Shown here piece by piece: positions 14,986 to 35,092 of a DNA stretch of 36,792 bases (position 1 is the stretch's first letter; every line of letters begins with the position of its first letter). The position numbers and the translations under genes are program-made. The stretch is from a virus. Where the stretch lies: positions 1 to 36,792 of the IMG/VR virus record IMGVR_UViG_3300042881_001286; one strand, written 5' to 3'. Under the pieces are notes generated by a model that saw nothing but the letters and a program-made list of their open reading frames with translations, was not told the origin of the DNA and searched no databases.

Positions 14986-15837
14986 TTGCTAGTTATACTC
15001 AAGCAACTATTCGACCACAACGGCAACGTCTATAAGGTAGGCGATGTTGTTTCTGAAAGCAAGTTTAAGCCGAATTACGTGGATCGTATAATTGAGAGCG
15101 AACACGCGGCAAGGCATATATCGGCCACGCTTATTCCAGTATCAAAGGTCAATCCAGTTATTGTCACGGGAATGTGGAAGCGACCTGACATATTCGACAT
15201 ATTCGCCAAACATACGGCCACGCTTGGAATAGATGTGATCGTTGCGGGTAGTGAGGGCAAAGTAAGTCAACGACAGGCCGAAAAATACGGTTTCAAGTAC
15301 ATCGAAATTGAAAACCAACCACTCGCAACAAAGATGAACGCCACGACCATTAAAGCGGTTGAGGATGGTTATTCGCACGTTATCTGTTTAGGATCGGACG
15401 ACCTTATTTCGAAGGAACTATTGAACGAGTTTATCCGACTGATGAAAAAGGGCTATGATTTTATCGGGGTGTTGGATTGGTACTTCTATGACACCACAAC
15501 GGGAAAAGCAAGCTATTGGGGCGGCTACATTGACAGACAACGTAAAGGCCATACGTGCGGGGCGGGGCGTGTGATAAGCGCATCACTACTCAAAGAATGG
15601 AATAACGCACCGTGGGAGGTTCAACATTCGGACTTCTTGGACAATTCCATGCAGGGCAAATTGCTAAAGGCCAACAGGCACGTTAAGACATTCAGGTTAA
15701 AGGATAGCGGTCTGTTTGCGGTTGACGTTAAGAGTTCAACGAACATGACACCGTTTGAAATATGGCCGAATACTTCTTACATTGACCCAACGGTAATAAC
15801 ATCAAGATTCAATGTGCGGGATAGCGGCCGTAATTAA
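14986..15837 (+). CDS. GT-A fold glycosyltransferase (GT2-like) with N-terminal extra domain
   Basis: 283 residues, TTG start three bases after the previous stop. The first about 50 residues (QLFDHNGNVYKVGDVVSES) resemble a small phage structural domain rather than a transferase. From residue about 56, NPVIVTGMWKRPDIFDIFAK opens a GT-A fold, with the metal-binding motif SDD at 137-139 (VICLGSDDLIS). The acceptor-side region is GYIDRQRKGHTCGAGRVISA. It should transfer a sugar from a nucleotide donor. Its 3' end overlaps the asparagine-synthetase-like gene by 26 bases, so the two are co-expressed. Acceptor unknown. Confidence 0.75.
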   Translation: MLVILKQLFDHNGNVYKVGDVVSESKFKPNYVDRIIESEHAARHISATLIPVSKVNPVIVTGMWKRPDIFDIFAKHTATLGIDVIVAGSEGKVSQRQAEKYGFKYIEIENQPLATKMNATTIKAVEDGYSHVICLGSDDLISKELLNEFIRLMKKGYDFIGVLDWYFYDTTTGKASYWGGYIDRQRKGHTCGAGRVISASLLKEWNNAPWEVQHSDFLDNSMQGKLLKANRHVKTFRLKDSGLFAVDVKSSTNMTPFEIWPNTSYIDPTVITSRFNVRDSGRN

Positions 15838-17119
15838 CGGTGATCGGTATATTGCATCTACAATGGGCGCGGCTATTCGCAGACGCGGGTTAACTTCGAC
15901 ACTTACAAAGATTGAGAACCTAGACGTTTACTTCACTCATTTACCGATTACAAATGATGTGTATTCACAGCCATGCAGATATAAGGATGTAACGCTTTGG
16001 CTTAATGGTTACATAAGTAACTGGAAGGAACTAGCAAGCGAAAATAGTTTAGTTGCTGAGAGCGACACAGAATTGCTTACATGGTGGGTATCACATGATA
16101 TGCCACTCGATAGGCTCAACGGTTTCTTTGCCGTGTTGTATCATGATGCCAACGGTATTCATTACTTCACGGATAGATACGGAATTAAACAGCTTTACAG
16201 ATATGGCAACTTCATTTGTTCCGAGGTCAAAGGATTGAAAGCGGTTGTTGACCTAAAGATAGACCTTGACGCTATGGCCGATTGGGATCATTCACTCGGA
16301 GTAATGACACCTGACACCATATACATAGGCGTTCAGCGTGTCGGTCAGTTGCCGTTTGTAAGACCTGAAAAGATTACTATCAGTTACGAAGATGCCAAAC
16401 ATCGACTGACTGAAATATGGGAGCGTGTGGTATGGCGTAACCGATACGATGGTGCGGGCTGCTACCTTAGTGGTGGCATTGATTCGGGAATGATAGCCAA
16501 ATGGTTCAAACCTGACTATTGCTTTTCAATGGACTACCTGACCGCGTCAAGTGAGATTGACGGTATTAAGACCAATACAACGGGCAACCATTACACCATG
16601 ATATGTAATGACGCGATGGCCGAAAGGTATTCCAAAGAGGTAATGAAAGCATTGGACGACCCGAAGGTGGGTAGTTGCTACACCAATTTCGCGTTGGCTG
16701 AACTTGCATCAAAGTTCTGTAAGGTAGTCTATTCGGGCGCGGGTGGTGACGAGGTTTTCAAAGGTTACACACATCGCTATGATAAGGACATTCAGGCCGT
16801 AATAAACAGAACGGGCGTGTATGGCAAGCGTTACGACATTACCCACGATGCGTATGATTGGGCGTACCTTCGTGGTATATTGGTCGTTGAGGATAGGATG
16901 GGCGGTTGGCATACGATGGAAACCCGCTACCCATTCCTTGACAATGAACTGGTTGACTTCGCTTTGTCATTGCCCGATAAATACCTTTTCGGTAAGCGGA
17001 TATTGAAGGACATAAGCGGCCTACCTGATGAAATACTCGTAGCCAAGAAAAGAGGTTTTAGTAACCCACACTTCACTAATAAAGAATGGACACATCATGT
17101 CAAAACAGGACTTGTATAA
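15812..17119 (+). CDS. Asparagine synthetase (glutamine-hydrolysing)-like amidotransferase
   Basis: 435 residues. Cys2 after the initiator Met (MCGIAAV) is the N-terminal nucleophile of the glutaminase domain, which fixes the start. Other glutaminase residues: Asn65-Gly66 (LNGY), and SDTE at 84-87. The position of the usual Glu after NG (NGE) is Tyr67. The synthetase domain has the PP-loop SGGIDS (220-225), SGAGGDE (308-314) and ETRYPFLD. Shorter than the bacterial AsnB (about 550). Phage or surface-polysaccharide homologues (WbpS/WbmI type) convert sugar carboxylates to amides. Given neighbouring glycosyltransferases and acyltransferase, that role is more likely than making asparagine. Inference. 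Confidence 0.88.
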   Translation: MCGIAAVINGDRYIASTMGAAIRRRGLTSTLTKIENLDVYFTHLPITNDVYSQPCRYKDVTLWLNGYISNWKELASENSLVAESDTELLTWWVSHDMPLDRLNGFFAVLYHDANGIHYFTDRYGIKQLYRYGNFICSEVKGLKAVVDLKIDLDAMADWDHSLGVMTPDTIYIGVQRVGQLPFVRPEKITISYEDAKHRLTEIWERVVWRNRYDGAGCYLSGGIDSGMIAKWFKPDYCFSMDYLTASSEIDGIKTNTTGNHYTMICNDAMAERYSKEVMKALDDPKVGSCYTNFALAELASKFCKVVYSGAGGDEVFKGYTHRYDKDIQAVINRTGVYGKRYDITHDAYDWAYLRGILVVEDRMGGWHTMETRYPFLDNELVDFALSLPDKYLFGKRILKDISGLPDEILVAKKRGFSNPHFTNKEWTHHVKTGLV

Positions 17120-17615
17120 CAGCGATTGGATCAACATAGACGGTAACTACATCCACCGTACCGCGATAGTTCACCCTAACGTGAAACTTGGTACTGGAAA
17201 TTGGATAGGGGCTTTCTGCGTTATCGGGTCGAACGGTGAGATGCGTGGCGTGTCACAGGATGATTTCAAAGGCCACGTCAACATAGGCGATGACAACGTT
17301 ATCAGCGAACTTGTCACTATTCAAAGACCGTTCAAAGAGGGTGACTGCACTTCAATCGGGTCGAACAATATCATAATGGCTCACTCACATATCGGGCATG
17401 ATGTTTTCATAGGCAACAACTGCGAAGTGTGTACGGGAACTATCATAGGCGGCTATGCCATGATAAAGGACGGTGTTAAAATAAAGTTAGGCGTGACCGT
17501 TCGTAATAGAATGGTTATCGGGAACGGGGCTTTGGTCGGTCTTGGTTCGGTAGTGGTCAAAGATGTTCCTGCTGATTGTGTTGTTTACGGCAACCCAGCG
17601 AAGTCAAAGGAATGA
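17097..17615 (+). CDS. LpxA-like left-handed beta-helix acyltransferase
   Basis: 172 residues built of hexapeptide repeats (I-G-x-x-x-x pattern: VKLGTGNWIGAFCVIG; VNIGDDNVISELVTI; TSIGSNNIIMAHSHIGHDV; VFIGNNCEVCTGTIIGG). Residues 95-102 (AHSHIGHD) align with the catalytic stretch of LpxA (AHIAHD), with His101 in the place of its catalytic His125. The C-terminus VVVKDVPADCVVYGNPAKSKE is the classic end of such transferases. The gene overlaps the amidotransferase by 23 bases. It probably acylates an amino or hydroxy sugar; shorter than true LpxA (about 262), lacking its C-terminal helical domain. Confidence 0.85.
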   Translation: MSKQDLYNSDWINIDGNYIHRTAIVHPNVKLGTGNWIGAFCVIGSNGEMRGVSQDDFKGHVNIGDDNVISELVTIQRPFKEGDCTSIGSNNIIMAHSHIGHDVFIGNNCEVCTGTIIGGYAMIKDGVKIKLGVTVRNRMVIGNGALVGLGSVVVKDVPADCVVYGNPAKSKE

Positions 17616-32201: not shown

Positions 32202-32429
32202 ATGAAAGGATTAGACAGATACCTGACAACCGAACCCGATTGCTCATTTGACTATTGGATTGAGTACGTTATGGAAGCAATGACTGAAACATTCTTTGAT
32301 GCTAATGAAGATTGGATTATGACTACCTACGGCCAATGCGACAAGTGGTTATGGAAGCTGAGACACAAATCACCGAATCAAGCCGCAGCGATTATTGAAC
32401 GAGCGTTTAACATTTACCTGAGCAACTAA
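32202..32429 (+). CDS. Small hypothetical protein (75 aa)
   Basis: Acidic, aromatic-rich and helical: MKGLDRYLTTEPDCSFDYWI, EAMTETFFDANEDWIMT, KLRHKSPNQAAAIIERAFN. No family recognised. Encoded in the early-type region after unit A promoter with a 64-base gap upstream. Confidence 0.6.
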   Translation: MKGLDRYLTTEPDCSFDYWIEYVMEAMTETFFDANEDWIMTTYGQCDKWLWKLRHKSPNQAAAIIERAFNIYLSN

Positions 32430-32778: not shown

Positions 32779-33191
32779 AACCATTCAAACTATCCAAGAC
32801 AAGCCGCGAACGGCTAACAGGCATCAAGCCGATACTAATCGAAATAATCGAGGAGGCTATCAAGACAAGCCCTATCGACTTCGGGATACCACAGGACGGT
32901 GGACTTCGGACGGCACATAGGCAGAATGCCATGTACGCGCAAGGCCGAACCGACAAGAGCAAGCCGATCATAACCAACGCTGACGGGTTTAAGAAATTCA
33001 GCCGTCACCAATCGGGCGAAGCGTTCGACATTTACGCCTACGTTGACGGCAAAGCATCGTGGGATATTCAGCATCTGACAACGATAGCCCGACACTTGCA
33101 AGCGGTGGCGAAGTCTAAGGGTGTTGAGTTGGAGTGGGGCGGTGATTTCAAGTCTATCAAAGATTTACCACATTTGGAGATGAAACGATGA
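32775..33191 (+). CDS. Endolysin, peptidase M15 family (L-Ala-D-Glu or D-Ala-D-Ala type)
   Basis: 138 residues. The metal-binding layout is S-R-H-Q-S-G-E-A-F-D (about 76-85), giving His and Asp ligands, and later WGGDF ... LPHLEM, giving the third His. GGLRTAHRQN precedes the first ligand. This matches M15-type peptidoglycan peptidases of phages. No signal peptide, so release needs the holin. Joined with flanking genes by ATGA overlaps; the downstream neighbour is a homing endonuclease that interrupts the lysis cassette. Confidence 0.85.
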   Translation: MKPFKLSKTSRERLTGIKPILIEIIEEAIKTSPIDFGIPQDGGLRTAHRQNAMYAQGRTDKSKPIITNADGFKKFSRHQSGEAFDIYAYVDGKASWDIQHLTTIARHLQAVAKSKGVELEWGGDFKSIKDLPHLEMKR

Positions 33192-33781
33192 AAACAGAAG
33201 AGATTTGGTTGCCAGTAATGGGTTTTGAGGGATATTACGAAGTTAGCAACCTCGGAAACATTAAAAGACTAAAAAGGATTGTTAATAATGCTCGGTCAAC
33301 TCGAACTCTCGAAGAAAAGATGCTATTACCTAAAAAGACAAATAATAAGTATGGATATACTACTGTAAGCCTGTCTAAGGAGGGCAAAAGTTACGGCGCT
33401 CACATGATAGGTAGATGTGTGTATGAGGCTTTTAATAACGTAAAGATTAACGCTACGCTTACTGTTGCTCATAAGGACGGAAACAAAACAAACAATAAGT
33501 TAGATAACTTGAAAATACTAACCCGCAGAAATATTAAGCAGGTTCATAAAAGTAATACTGGAATTGTAGGAGTTAGGAAAGTAAAGGGATCGTTTCACGC
33601 ATATATTAAGTTTGGCAGAAAAAGCATACTTCTACACATGTCTAAGGACAAGAACGAGTGCCGCAAAATATACCAATTAGCAAAGGCAATGATTGACGAG
33701 TATGACAAGTTGAAGACTGGAATACTAAGCAATTCAAGGGTAAACAATAAGCTGATAGTTAAAAGCCTCCCAATAAAATGA
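33188..33781 (+). CDS. HNH homing endonuclease (NUMOD4 + HNH)
   Basis: 197 residues. NUMOD4-like start: EEIWLPVMGFEGYYEVSNLG, then NIKRLKR. HNH core: VAHKDGNKTNNKLDNLKILT, with the His and two Asn of the nuclease. The C-terminal part (TGIVGVRKVKGSFHAYIKFG) looks like an AP2/NUMOD-type DNA-binding module. The coding DNA is AT-richer than the flanking genes. Both ends are ATGA junctions with the lysis genes, so insertion kept the coupled operon intact. A free-standing homing gene that can mobilise itself between phages. Confidence 0.88.
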   Translation: MKTEEIWLPVMGFEGYYEVSNLGNIKRLKRIVNNARSTRTLEEKMLLPKKTNNKYGYTTVSLSKEGKSYGAHMIGRCVYEAFNNVKINATLTVAHKDGNKTNNKLDNLKILTRRNIKQVHKSNTGIVGVRKVKGSFHAYIKFGRKSILLHMSKDKNECRKIYQLAKAMIDEYDKLKTGILSNSRVNNKLIVKSLPIK

Positions 33782-34155
33782 CAGCCCTCGACCCAAAGCC
33801 ATACCGCTACATTCTCATTGCAGCCGTCACGTTAGCCGCTATTCTTATCGCTCTCATCATATTCCTATCCGTTCAACTATGGATAAGCAACCAACGGGAA
33901 AAGGCCGTTAACAAAGCACAGATAAACCAACTACTCCAAACGCGGCGCGATGCTGAATATAAGGTGCAACAGGCCGTTGATTCTGTCAGTATAATTCACA
34001 TTGAACTGCAATCGAATCAAGCCAAACTATCCGAATCAATCAACCGTTACAACAAACTCAAAAAACATGAACCGAATCTTATCTTATTGCGTGGCGATAC
34101 TTCTGCTATCCTGGGCGAACTCCAACGTATCCGCTCAGAAGTTGGTCAGGATTGA
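33778..34155 (+). CDS. i-spanin-like protein
   Basis: 125 residues. One N-terminal membrane anchor (about 11-36, YILIAAVTLAAILIALIIFL) and then a long charged coiled coil (AQINQLLQTRRDAEYKVQQA, QSNQAKLSESINRYNKL). This is the topology of an inner-membrane spanin subunit (Rz-like). The neighbouring gene starts within its 3' part in another frame, the Rz/Rz1 style. The sequence itself carries no specific motif, so the call rests on topology and the lysis context. Confidence 0.6.
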   Translation: MTALDPKPYRYILIAAVTLAAILIALIIFLSVQLWISNQREKAVNKAQINQLLQTRRDAEYKVQQAVDSVSIIHIELQSNQAKLSESINRYNKLKKHEPNLILLRGDTSAILGELQRIRSEVGQD

Positions 34156-34495
34156 CGGGCAACCGTACTACTGCAACTCCGAACCCGTTACCATCGCTTT
34201 AATAGGCGCGTGGAAATCTAAGGACAAGGTTATTGAACTTGAAACTCAGGTCACGCATTGGCAGACCCGATCCGAACTGCTTGAATTGAACATCGAGCAA
34301 CTGGAGTTAATTGTCGCGGCAAAGGACACTATTATCGAGGTCGCGGATGACGTGACCGAACTAACTGAAAAAGAGGTTAAACGATTGAAGCGACAGGCCG
34401 TAGCCAAGTGGTTCAAATCAACGCTTGGAATGGTCGCAACGGGTGTGACTGGATTGGGAGTTGGCGTTGGAATCGGGGTGATGGTTGGCCGCTAA
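34067..34495 (+). CDS. Exported coiled-coil protein overlapping the i-spanin, possible spanin partner
   Basis: 142 residues from ATG 34067 (upstream in-frame ATG at 34001 would add a non-signal extension). Residues 1-23 form a signal peptide, MNRILSYCVAILLLSWANSN then VSAQ, with an AxA-like cleavage site. The mature part has a coiled coil (LELNIEQLELIVAAKDTIIE) and a glycine-rich hydrophobic C-terminus (STLGMVATGVTGLGVGVGIG), perhaps a second membrane helix. It overlaps the i-spanin frame by 89 bases. No lipobox, so it is not a classical o-spanin. The last codons, V-G-R-stop, lie in the direct repeat of the downstream cassette. Confidence 0.6.
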   Translation: MNRILSYCVAILLLSWANSNVSAQKLVRIDGQPYYCNSEPVTIALIGAWKSKDKVIELETQVTHWQTRSELLELNIEQLELIVAAKDTIIEVADDVTELTEKEVKRLKRQAVAKWFKSTLGMVATGVTGLGVGVGIGVMVGR

Positions 34496-34623
34496 CGTTT
34501 ACAGCTATACGATGTGGCGGATTTTCAGCACGAAAGCCCAATACGAAGCACCAAAGTTGAATTTAAAATAAATGTTTAATCGAAGCACGTCAGCCGCCAT
34601 ATTGTATAGCACTTGTTAGCGGC
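34488..34623 (-). repeat. attC-like stem-loop
   Basis: Left arm 34488-34520 and right arm 34594-34623 pair as GCCGCTAAC, then an unpaired asymmetric loop (GTTTACA versus ACTT), GCTATAC, a mismatched GATG/TATT step, and TGGCGG. The 73-base terminal part completes a 136-base structure. Internal unpaired spacer plus extrahelical bases are the features of folded integron attC sites. Confidence 0.6.
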
Positions 34624-34650
34624 TGCCCTTCTTCACAAATCAAAATAAAA

Positions 34651-34947
34651 ATGGAATACATAAACGATTTAAGTTTTTCAAACCTTGTCAATTTGATACA
34701 AGGCGAAGAAATAAAGGCTGCTGATATTTTGCATACAATAGCCTTAGAAATGGAAGAAAATAACAAGGTAATTGAAGAGTTGGAAAGTCAATTATCAAGA
34801 GCCAAAGGAAGAAAAGATACTTTGATTTCTGGCACACAAAGAGTAATGCAGCATATCAAAAAAGAATATCCTTTAGCTGTCAAAAGACAAGATTATATAG
34901 TTGTCGTAACCAAAGAGAATATTTCAATTGAACGGAATGTTCTTTAG
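34651..34947 (+). CDS. Cassette-borne hypothetical coiled-coil protein
   Basis: 98 residues, MEYINDLSFSNLVNLIQGEE then a coiled coil (MEENNKVIEELESQLSRAKG). Markedly AT-richer than neighbours. It sits between the attC-like stem-loop and the second 14-bp direct repeat, with its TAG stop touching the repeat. Cassette genes are typically promoter-less and of unknown function, which fits. No family recognised. Confidence 0.6.
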   Translation: MEYINDLSFSNLVNLIQGEEIKAADILHTIALEMEENNKVIEELESQLSRAKGRKDTLISGTQRVMQHIKKEYPLAVKRQDYIVVVTKENISIERNVL

Positions 34948-35022
34948 GGTTGGCCGCTAACTCGCGGCTTTGCGCACAACAACCGAACGCGTGAACGTCA
35001 TACTATCAACCACTATAGCTTA

Positions 35023-35039
35023 TTTAGAATGATTCTAAA
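35023..35039. promoter_or_regulatory. Palindromic operator, copy B
   Basis: TTTAGAATGATTCTAAA, a perfect palindrome, identical to copy A apart from the central base. Its centre is 54 bases before the -7 box at 35085. Confidence 0.7.
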
Positions 35040-35061
35040 TTAGCGCAAAATCAAAGATTAA

Positions 35062-35092
35062 TTTGGTAGTGTGGAAATCATCCGTACATTTG
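35062..35092 (+). promoter_or_regulatory. Consensus promoter of early unit B
   Basis: TTTG (35062-35065), 19-base spacer, TACATTTG (35085-35092). Same architecture and flanks as unit A. The 42-base leader ends with ACTACCACGAAATGCAA, shared with unit A. Confidence 0.8.

Follow-up and report, generated by a model that had tools for sequence, protein, structure and literature searches.

How does a single AT-rich gene, flanked by perfect direct repeats and preceded by an attC-like stem, come to lie in the lysis region of a phage that has no integrase? The question is raised by a virus record of 36,792 nucleotides (IMGVR_UViG_3300042881_001286; "the window" hereafter means this whole 36.8-kb stretch), in which a preliminary description had proposed the capture of an integron-like gene cassette. 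We searched the window for a tyrosine recombinase and found none; the answer proposed here comes from related phages and from the chromosomes of Bacteroidota. We consider it likely, from the comparisons given below, that the insert belongs, as a mobile gene cassette, to an integron-like system shared by Bacteroidota and their phages, on which a XerA-like recombinase lacking the I2 region of the integron integrase IntI would act.

The insert and its empty sites

The features of the insert are collected in Table 1. Two identical copies of the 14-mer GGTTGGCCGCTAAC, spaced 465 bp, form its first and terminal cores. An imperfect inverted repeat (34488-34623) had been described there, with unpaired bases; indeed, GCCGCTAAC pairs with GTTAGCGGC and GCTATACGATGTGGCGG (34504-34520) with CCGCCATATTGTATAGC (34594-34610), the two helices being separated by an unpaired spacer on each side. 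Read in order, the hairpin consists of the G after AAC, an unpaired spacer, the arm 34504-34520 (paired with 34594-34610), a terminal loop and the T before GTT. Folded as DNA, the + strand of the site reaches -25.0 kcal/mol (z -3.05; 0 of 200 shuffles equal that), against -20.5 kcal/mol for the - strand (z -1.39; matched by 21 of 200 shuffles). This asymmetry favours the + strand, which is the strand of the cassette ORF; the bottom strand, whose folding had been suggested, is unremarkable, and it is the + strand that stands out. An Rfam search gave no match.

Table 1. Features of the insert and of the adjoining gene in the window
Feature	Position	Strand	Remark
Spanin-like gene	34001-34495	+	Adjoins the insert upstream; stop codon (34493-34495) inside the first core
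First core (R'') GGTTGGCCGCTAAC	34483-34496	+	Boundary 34496|34497 after AAC, from the comparison with sister phage L003
Cassette-site hairpin	34497-34614	+	Whole hairpin site: 34497-34623
R' core GTTAGCGGCTGCCC	34615-34628	+	Complementary to its own R'' (34948-34961), including the G.T pair of the family at position 11
Cassette ORF (ORF98), 98 aa, phrog_37199	34651-34947	+	32% G+C
Terminal R'' core, TAAC at its end	34948-34961	+	Cassette end
Remnant TCGCGGCTTTGCGCACAACA...	34962-35018	+	Absent from empty relatives

The cassette ORF is AT-rich as announced, with a G+C content of 32% for 45% in the window. Flavobacterium phage FCL-2 has an ORF 69% identical to it in a cassette array, Cellulophaga phage proteins are about 43% identical, and a Pfam search returned nothing above the cut-off. 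In FCL-2, after the relative of ORF98 come a second hairpin and one more ORF of 98 aa, and then a final core similar to the right end found in the window.

In order to see whether the unit is fixed, the preliminary description had called for a comparison with related phages. It is not, as the insert is absent from seven other relatives of the spanin gene (84-94% identical), in which this gene ends in GLIIAK, versus GIGVMVGR in the window. Homology of these empty relatives to the window resumes at about 35019, and the flanking TAAC core and the right remnant of about 57 bp are missing from them as well; the insert is, therefore, about 34448-35018. Capture at the stop codon of the spanin-like gene, as had been proposed, thus holds in that the TAA lies in the repeat, but the insertion is not clean. 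The remnant resembles both the sequence after the last FCL-2 cassette and the left arms of other cassette hairpins, and it is probably a further cassette that has been truncated. The first core has the same sequence as the R'' at the end of the ORF98 cassette and is probably the tail of an earlier copy of that cassette.

A sister phage with the same flanks, L003, has in addition a unit of 645 bp, which includes a hairpin of its own and an ORF for an MT-A70-like methyltransferase. This cassette sits between the spanin stop and the window-type hairpin, and the join reads exactly AAC|GTTTACAG; comparison between sister phages shows both where cassettes begin and that they are gained or lost. One has to keep in mind that a 19-bp stretch (TAACGTTTACAGCTATACG) is common to both L003 sites, and that homologous recombination would be possible there, in that case alone.

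Two neighbours of the insert may be mentioned: a NUMOD4/HNH homing-endonuclease-like gene directly upstream of the lysis genes (33188-33781), and a palindrome with a promoter-like TTATTTAGAATNATTCTAAATTAGCGC...TAATTTGGTAGTG (35018-35075), which recurs in sister phages ahead of several small ORFs that differ from one another.

Cassettes, arrays and cargo

The same type of site, followed by unrelated ORFs, was found in dozens of phage contigs, as would be expected of cassettes. The layout is a hairpin site, an R' core (GTTA...), an ORF and an R'' core (...TAAC), and arrays in Bacteroidota phages contain up to about nine of these cassettes; the tandem array of one-gene, one-site cassettes by which integrons are recognised is thus found in this family. 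As the R' and R'' cores of a cassette are complementary, excision of the cassette as a circle would bring a complete hairpin site back together.

The clearest boundaries come from cassettes shared by unrelated phages (L012/L017, L019/L029), where similarity starts at TAAC and stops at AAC. Another hairpin type (first 19 bases TAACGNTTACAGCTATACG) is present in 28 phage stretches with differing genes on either side, and conservation runs from TAAC to GTGTTA in most of them. A near-identical 53-nt stem is common to many phages; the exact pattern of its start, searched in 84,980 genomes, gave a single true match (L040), the other eight being chance matches, inside genes or elsewhere, so this stem is nearly confined to phages. 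In L040 (4,991 bp), seven cassettes follow one another in a closed chain; every one of them opens with a hairpin and a GTTA core and finishes with a TAAC core. Own cores pair at 9-10 of 10 positions, and none do so in shuffles. This contig (1-4991) comes from a 0.7-Mb bin and, with its 141-bp end overlap, exactly seven cassettes and lack of a recombinase, could be either a circular molecule or a loop made by the assembly through repeated sites. A tRNA-like text (GGTTCGATTCC, GGGTTCGACTCCCACC) lies within the loop of one cassette hairpin (L057:2599-2715), for which ARAGORN made no tRNA call.

We then counted cassettes with a strict site test (invariant bases plus spacers of the family type). 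It recovered 69 cassettes in 38 phage loci and 24 in 18 chromosomal loci of the short recombinase presented below, and 0 in 18 IntI loci, 0 in 23 unrelated loci and 0 in shuffled sequence. The window site has all the invariant bases and is not counted, because its spacers (about 7 and 4 nt) are longer than the family mode (5 and 1-2). The core had been noted to depart from the integron consensus GTTRRRY; indeed, GTTAGCG does not fit, and the consensus fits 4 of 42 phage cores and 3 of 27 chromosomal ones.

Perfect 14-bp direct repeats around a unit would also be left by an insertion sequence or a MITE with target-site duplication. The repeat, however, is the cassette's own core and varies from cassette to cassette, L003 has a different cassette with a different core at the same place, and the strict test finds none in unrelated loci; we regard this explanation, already refuted by the arrays, as having practically no chance of being right. 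Attachment of the insert to an integron-cassette type of element, on account of its attC-like stem and its boundaries, is on the contrary supported, as is the suggestion of an uncharacterised cassette family in Bacteroidota (Bacteroidetes).

As for the cargo, ten phage cassette proteins were tested, picked from 49 as recognisable-looking, so that their shares are no census: six were DNA-modification enzymes (two Mom, an N6_N4 methylase, a D12 methylase, an MT-A70 and a C5 methylase) and two were RNA ligases. To judge from these family names, phage cargo may be counter-defence, shielding phage DNA from bacterial defences. Chromosomal cassettes encode a ParE toxin, two SUKH proteins, a lincosamide-nucleotidyltransferase-like protein and domains of unknown function; the lincosamide-related one (L088:98-1150) has a LinB-like nucleotidyltransferase C-terminal domain.

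A short tyrosine recombinase beside the arrays

A tyrosine recombinase is encoded in 5 of the 31 records searched, and in two near-identical contigs its gene starts where the array ends. Relatives of this phage recombinase of about 280 aa were found in seven phage contigs (L053-L059), with the arrays all upstream and on the same strand; six of the seven have a constant junction, TAAC|TATYATATATAAACAAGTATA or close to it, behind last cassettes that are different. Three recombinase contigs encode a T4-like capsid protein, and one of these a terminase too, which makes them phages. Among Bacteroidota, 112 of 395 genomes have a relative at about 175 bits or more. Eleven of the best 30 chromosomal relatives adjoin an array and several others lie at contig ends; for the best two matches by score (L121, L122), no array was detected within 8 kb. 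In chromosomes, most junctions read TATAAACAA|GTT or nearly so; they lie on the side of the gene opposite to that in phages. An attI-like constant insertion point beside the recombinase is, thus, present in phage contigs and in chromosomes, and was not encountered in the window. Recombinases L060-L062 (23-26% identical) are not tied to arrays by the evidence here, and neither is that of L052, about 6 kb from a site, which was left out.

The window and most array-bearing phage records, many of which are fragments, encode no such recombinase. The phrase "without an integrase" in the preliminary description is accordingly right for the window, but not for the family, whose integrase, distinct from IntI, adjoins the arrays of related phages. 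We infer that this XerA-like enzyme of about 280 aa, devoid of the I2 region, is the actor: it would join cassettes at AAC|G and also at the attI-like site beside its gene, and in phages without it, that of the window included, cassettes would come and go through its action in trans. The ORF98 cassette has probably moved in this way, no recombinase being encoded in the window.

The catalytic R, K, HxxR, H and Y residues are conserved in the short recombinases. The best structural match of a model predicted with middling confidence (pLDDT 73.5) is XerA, and the next is IntI4. Two phage enzymes score 156-187 bits with the IntI model TIGR02249, below its cut-off of 265. For the chromosomal relatives, the match to this model is split in two (about 2-180 and 240-315) and leaves out about 180-240, the positions of the I2 region. 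Between the arginine motif of box I and the histidine motif of box II, the short recombinases have 86-94 residues, versus 133 in IntI and 94-99 in Xer; the I2 region, of about 40 residues, is lacking from them. In the tree, IntI forms one clade (100/100) and XerC/D with Bacteroidota Xer another (100/100), and the short recombinases fall outside both, the join of L053 being unsure. On these sequence comparisons, we conclude that the short recombinase would work like an integron system while being no member of the IntI family.

The sites could still be ordinary attC clusters lacking an integrase (CALIN), on which a true host IntI would act in trans. True IntI is at hand, being over the TIGR02249 cut-off in 84 of 296 sampled genomes of the phylum Bacteroidota (in the GTDB sense), and IntI1 was able to recombine one attC site of the Bacteroidota phage P12002L (PMC9892861), whose methyltransferase region contains sites of the present architecture, although the tested site need not be one of them. 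These are found in Polaribacter phage P12002L (L168, KR136259) at 32277, 38086, 38932 and 39241 on the - strand, near methyltransferase/modification genes and on the gene strand. This explanation nevertheless has to face the complete absence of strict-type cassettes from the 18 IntI loci, the lack of IntI over the cut-off in 10 of 11 genomes with short-recombinase arrays, the failure of most cores to fit GTTRRRY and the presence of a different recombinase at the constant array end in seven phages and eleven chromosomes; we give it a low probability. The share of 84 of 296 is, in itself, far above what published surveys of complete genomes suggest.

Folding strand and known systems

Between own cores, a G.T pair occupies position 11 in 48 of 51 phage pairs and in 30 of 30 chromosomal ones, and among wobbles G.T outnumbers A.C by 76:2 in phages and 39:5 in chromosomes. 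Such a bias implies selection acting on one strand, and the hairpin strand is also the more stable in 43 of 47 phage and 27 of 28 chromosomal sites; comparison of the sites thus strongly indicates that one strand folds. The same platform and recombinase might instead exchange double strands in the ordinary way at a dif-like palindrome, and the hairpin would merely reflect inverted arms. A XerA-like enzyme without I2, which is held necessary for single-strand recombination (PMC7790495), would suit this scheme, and the attI-like TATAAACAA|GT looks like a short core site. However, the near-invariant G.T pair and the wobble bias are expected only if one strand folds, the greater stability of the hairpin strand points the same way, and variable terminal loops and a one-arm unpaired spacer have no role in a double-strand site; we hold double-strand exchange to be unlikely.

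The ORF lies on the folding strand in 56 of 58 phage cassettes and opposite to it in chromosomes (16 of 17 in wide loci and 11 of 11 in narrow loci, duplicates removed), the latter being the classical integron arrangement. The ORF of the window had been said to run antisense to the classical cassette orientation; it does, as do phage cassettes as a rule, and this is no peculiarity of the window copy. The opposite ORF strands imply that phage arrays keep the recombination geometry, with their genes turned round.

Hairpins on the coding strand, as in phages, together with the near-identical 53-nt stem found in many of them, could also be taken for RNA leaders or terminators, with genes shuffled by homologous recombination between the repeated stems. 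Yet nearly all chromosomal cassettes, which have the same G.T pair, fold on the strand opposite to the ORF, so chromosomal mRNA does not carry the hairpin, which argues against an mRNA element; in addition, the pairing cores stand at the two ends of a cassette and not inside one local stem, and Rfam has no match. We find RNA stems very improbable. If single-strand recombination is retained, one strand of the site, the coding strand in phages, would fold and serve as a single-stranded DNA substrate.

We are inclined, with some reservation, to see here a separate integron-like family of Bacteroidota, whose I2-less recombinase would recombine folded single-stranded sites by other means and whose phage branch, of reversed polarity, would be an exchangeable counter-defence store. 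Like IntI integrons (TIGR02249; IntI1, VchIntIA/IntI4), it has a tyrosine recombinase beside an insertion point that is constant, one-gene cassettes standing in arrays, imperfect hairpins with AAC/GTT cores as sites, complementarity of own R' and R'', and strand asymmetry; it differs from them in a recombinase without I2 and outside the IntI clade, in cores that are rarely GTTRRRY, in its spacer and wobble pattern and, in phages, in an ORF on the folding strand. The closest fold and sequence matches of the short recombinase are XerA and XerH with the IMEX elements, which also lack I2. Xer enzymes serve to resolve dimers or to insert whole elements at dif, and are not known to be accompanied by cassette arrays.

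Integrase-less attC clusters were reported by Qi et al. in virulent phages, P12002L among them; some of the cassettes encode methyltransferases, and the attC sites diverge in direction (PMC9892861). That work relied on attC/IntI-based tools and tied the sites to IntI1; neither a short recombinase of phages, an attI-like junction, relatives in chromosomes nor a rule of reversed ORFs was described in it (PMC9892861). In the reverse integron of Treponema denticola (PMC4909258), the integrase gene is directed as the cassettes, as in chromosomal short-recombinase arrays, but it was described as an intI integron, and the phage arrays studied here are on the other side of the recombinase gene. In the open-access literature searched, we found no description of a short-recombinase platform.

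Single-strand recombination is held to be exclusive to integron integrases, and I2 is stated by Escudero et al. to be necessary for cassette capture and to occur in no other known protein (PMC7790495). Strand-specific hairpin arrays beside an I2-less recombinase thus offer a direct test of this view, and could represent either an independent origin of the single-strand trick or a relative of its ancestor. The IntegronFinder 2 survey located complete integrons in Bacteroidetes proper only in Salinibacter (PMC9024848), and a platform without IntI may be what such a survey would miss. For lytic phages, the system would amount to a cut-and-paste store of anti-restriction genes moving between unrelated phages.

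Elsewhere in the window (15812-17615), an ORF beginning with MCGIAAV, glutamine amidotransferase/asparagine synthase-like, precedes a hexapeptide-repeat acyltransferase-like ORF; as far as can be read from their sequence alone, these two would form an unusual gene pair for a phage.
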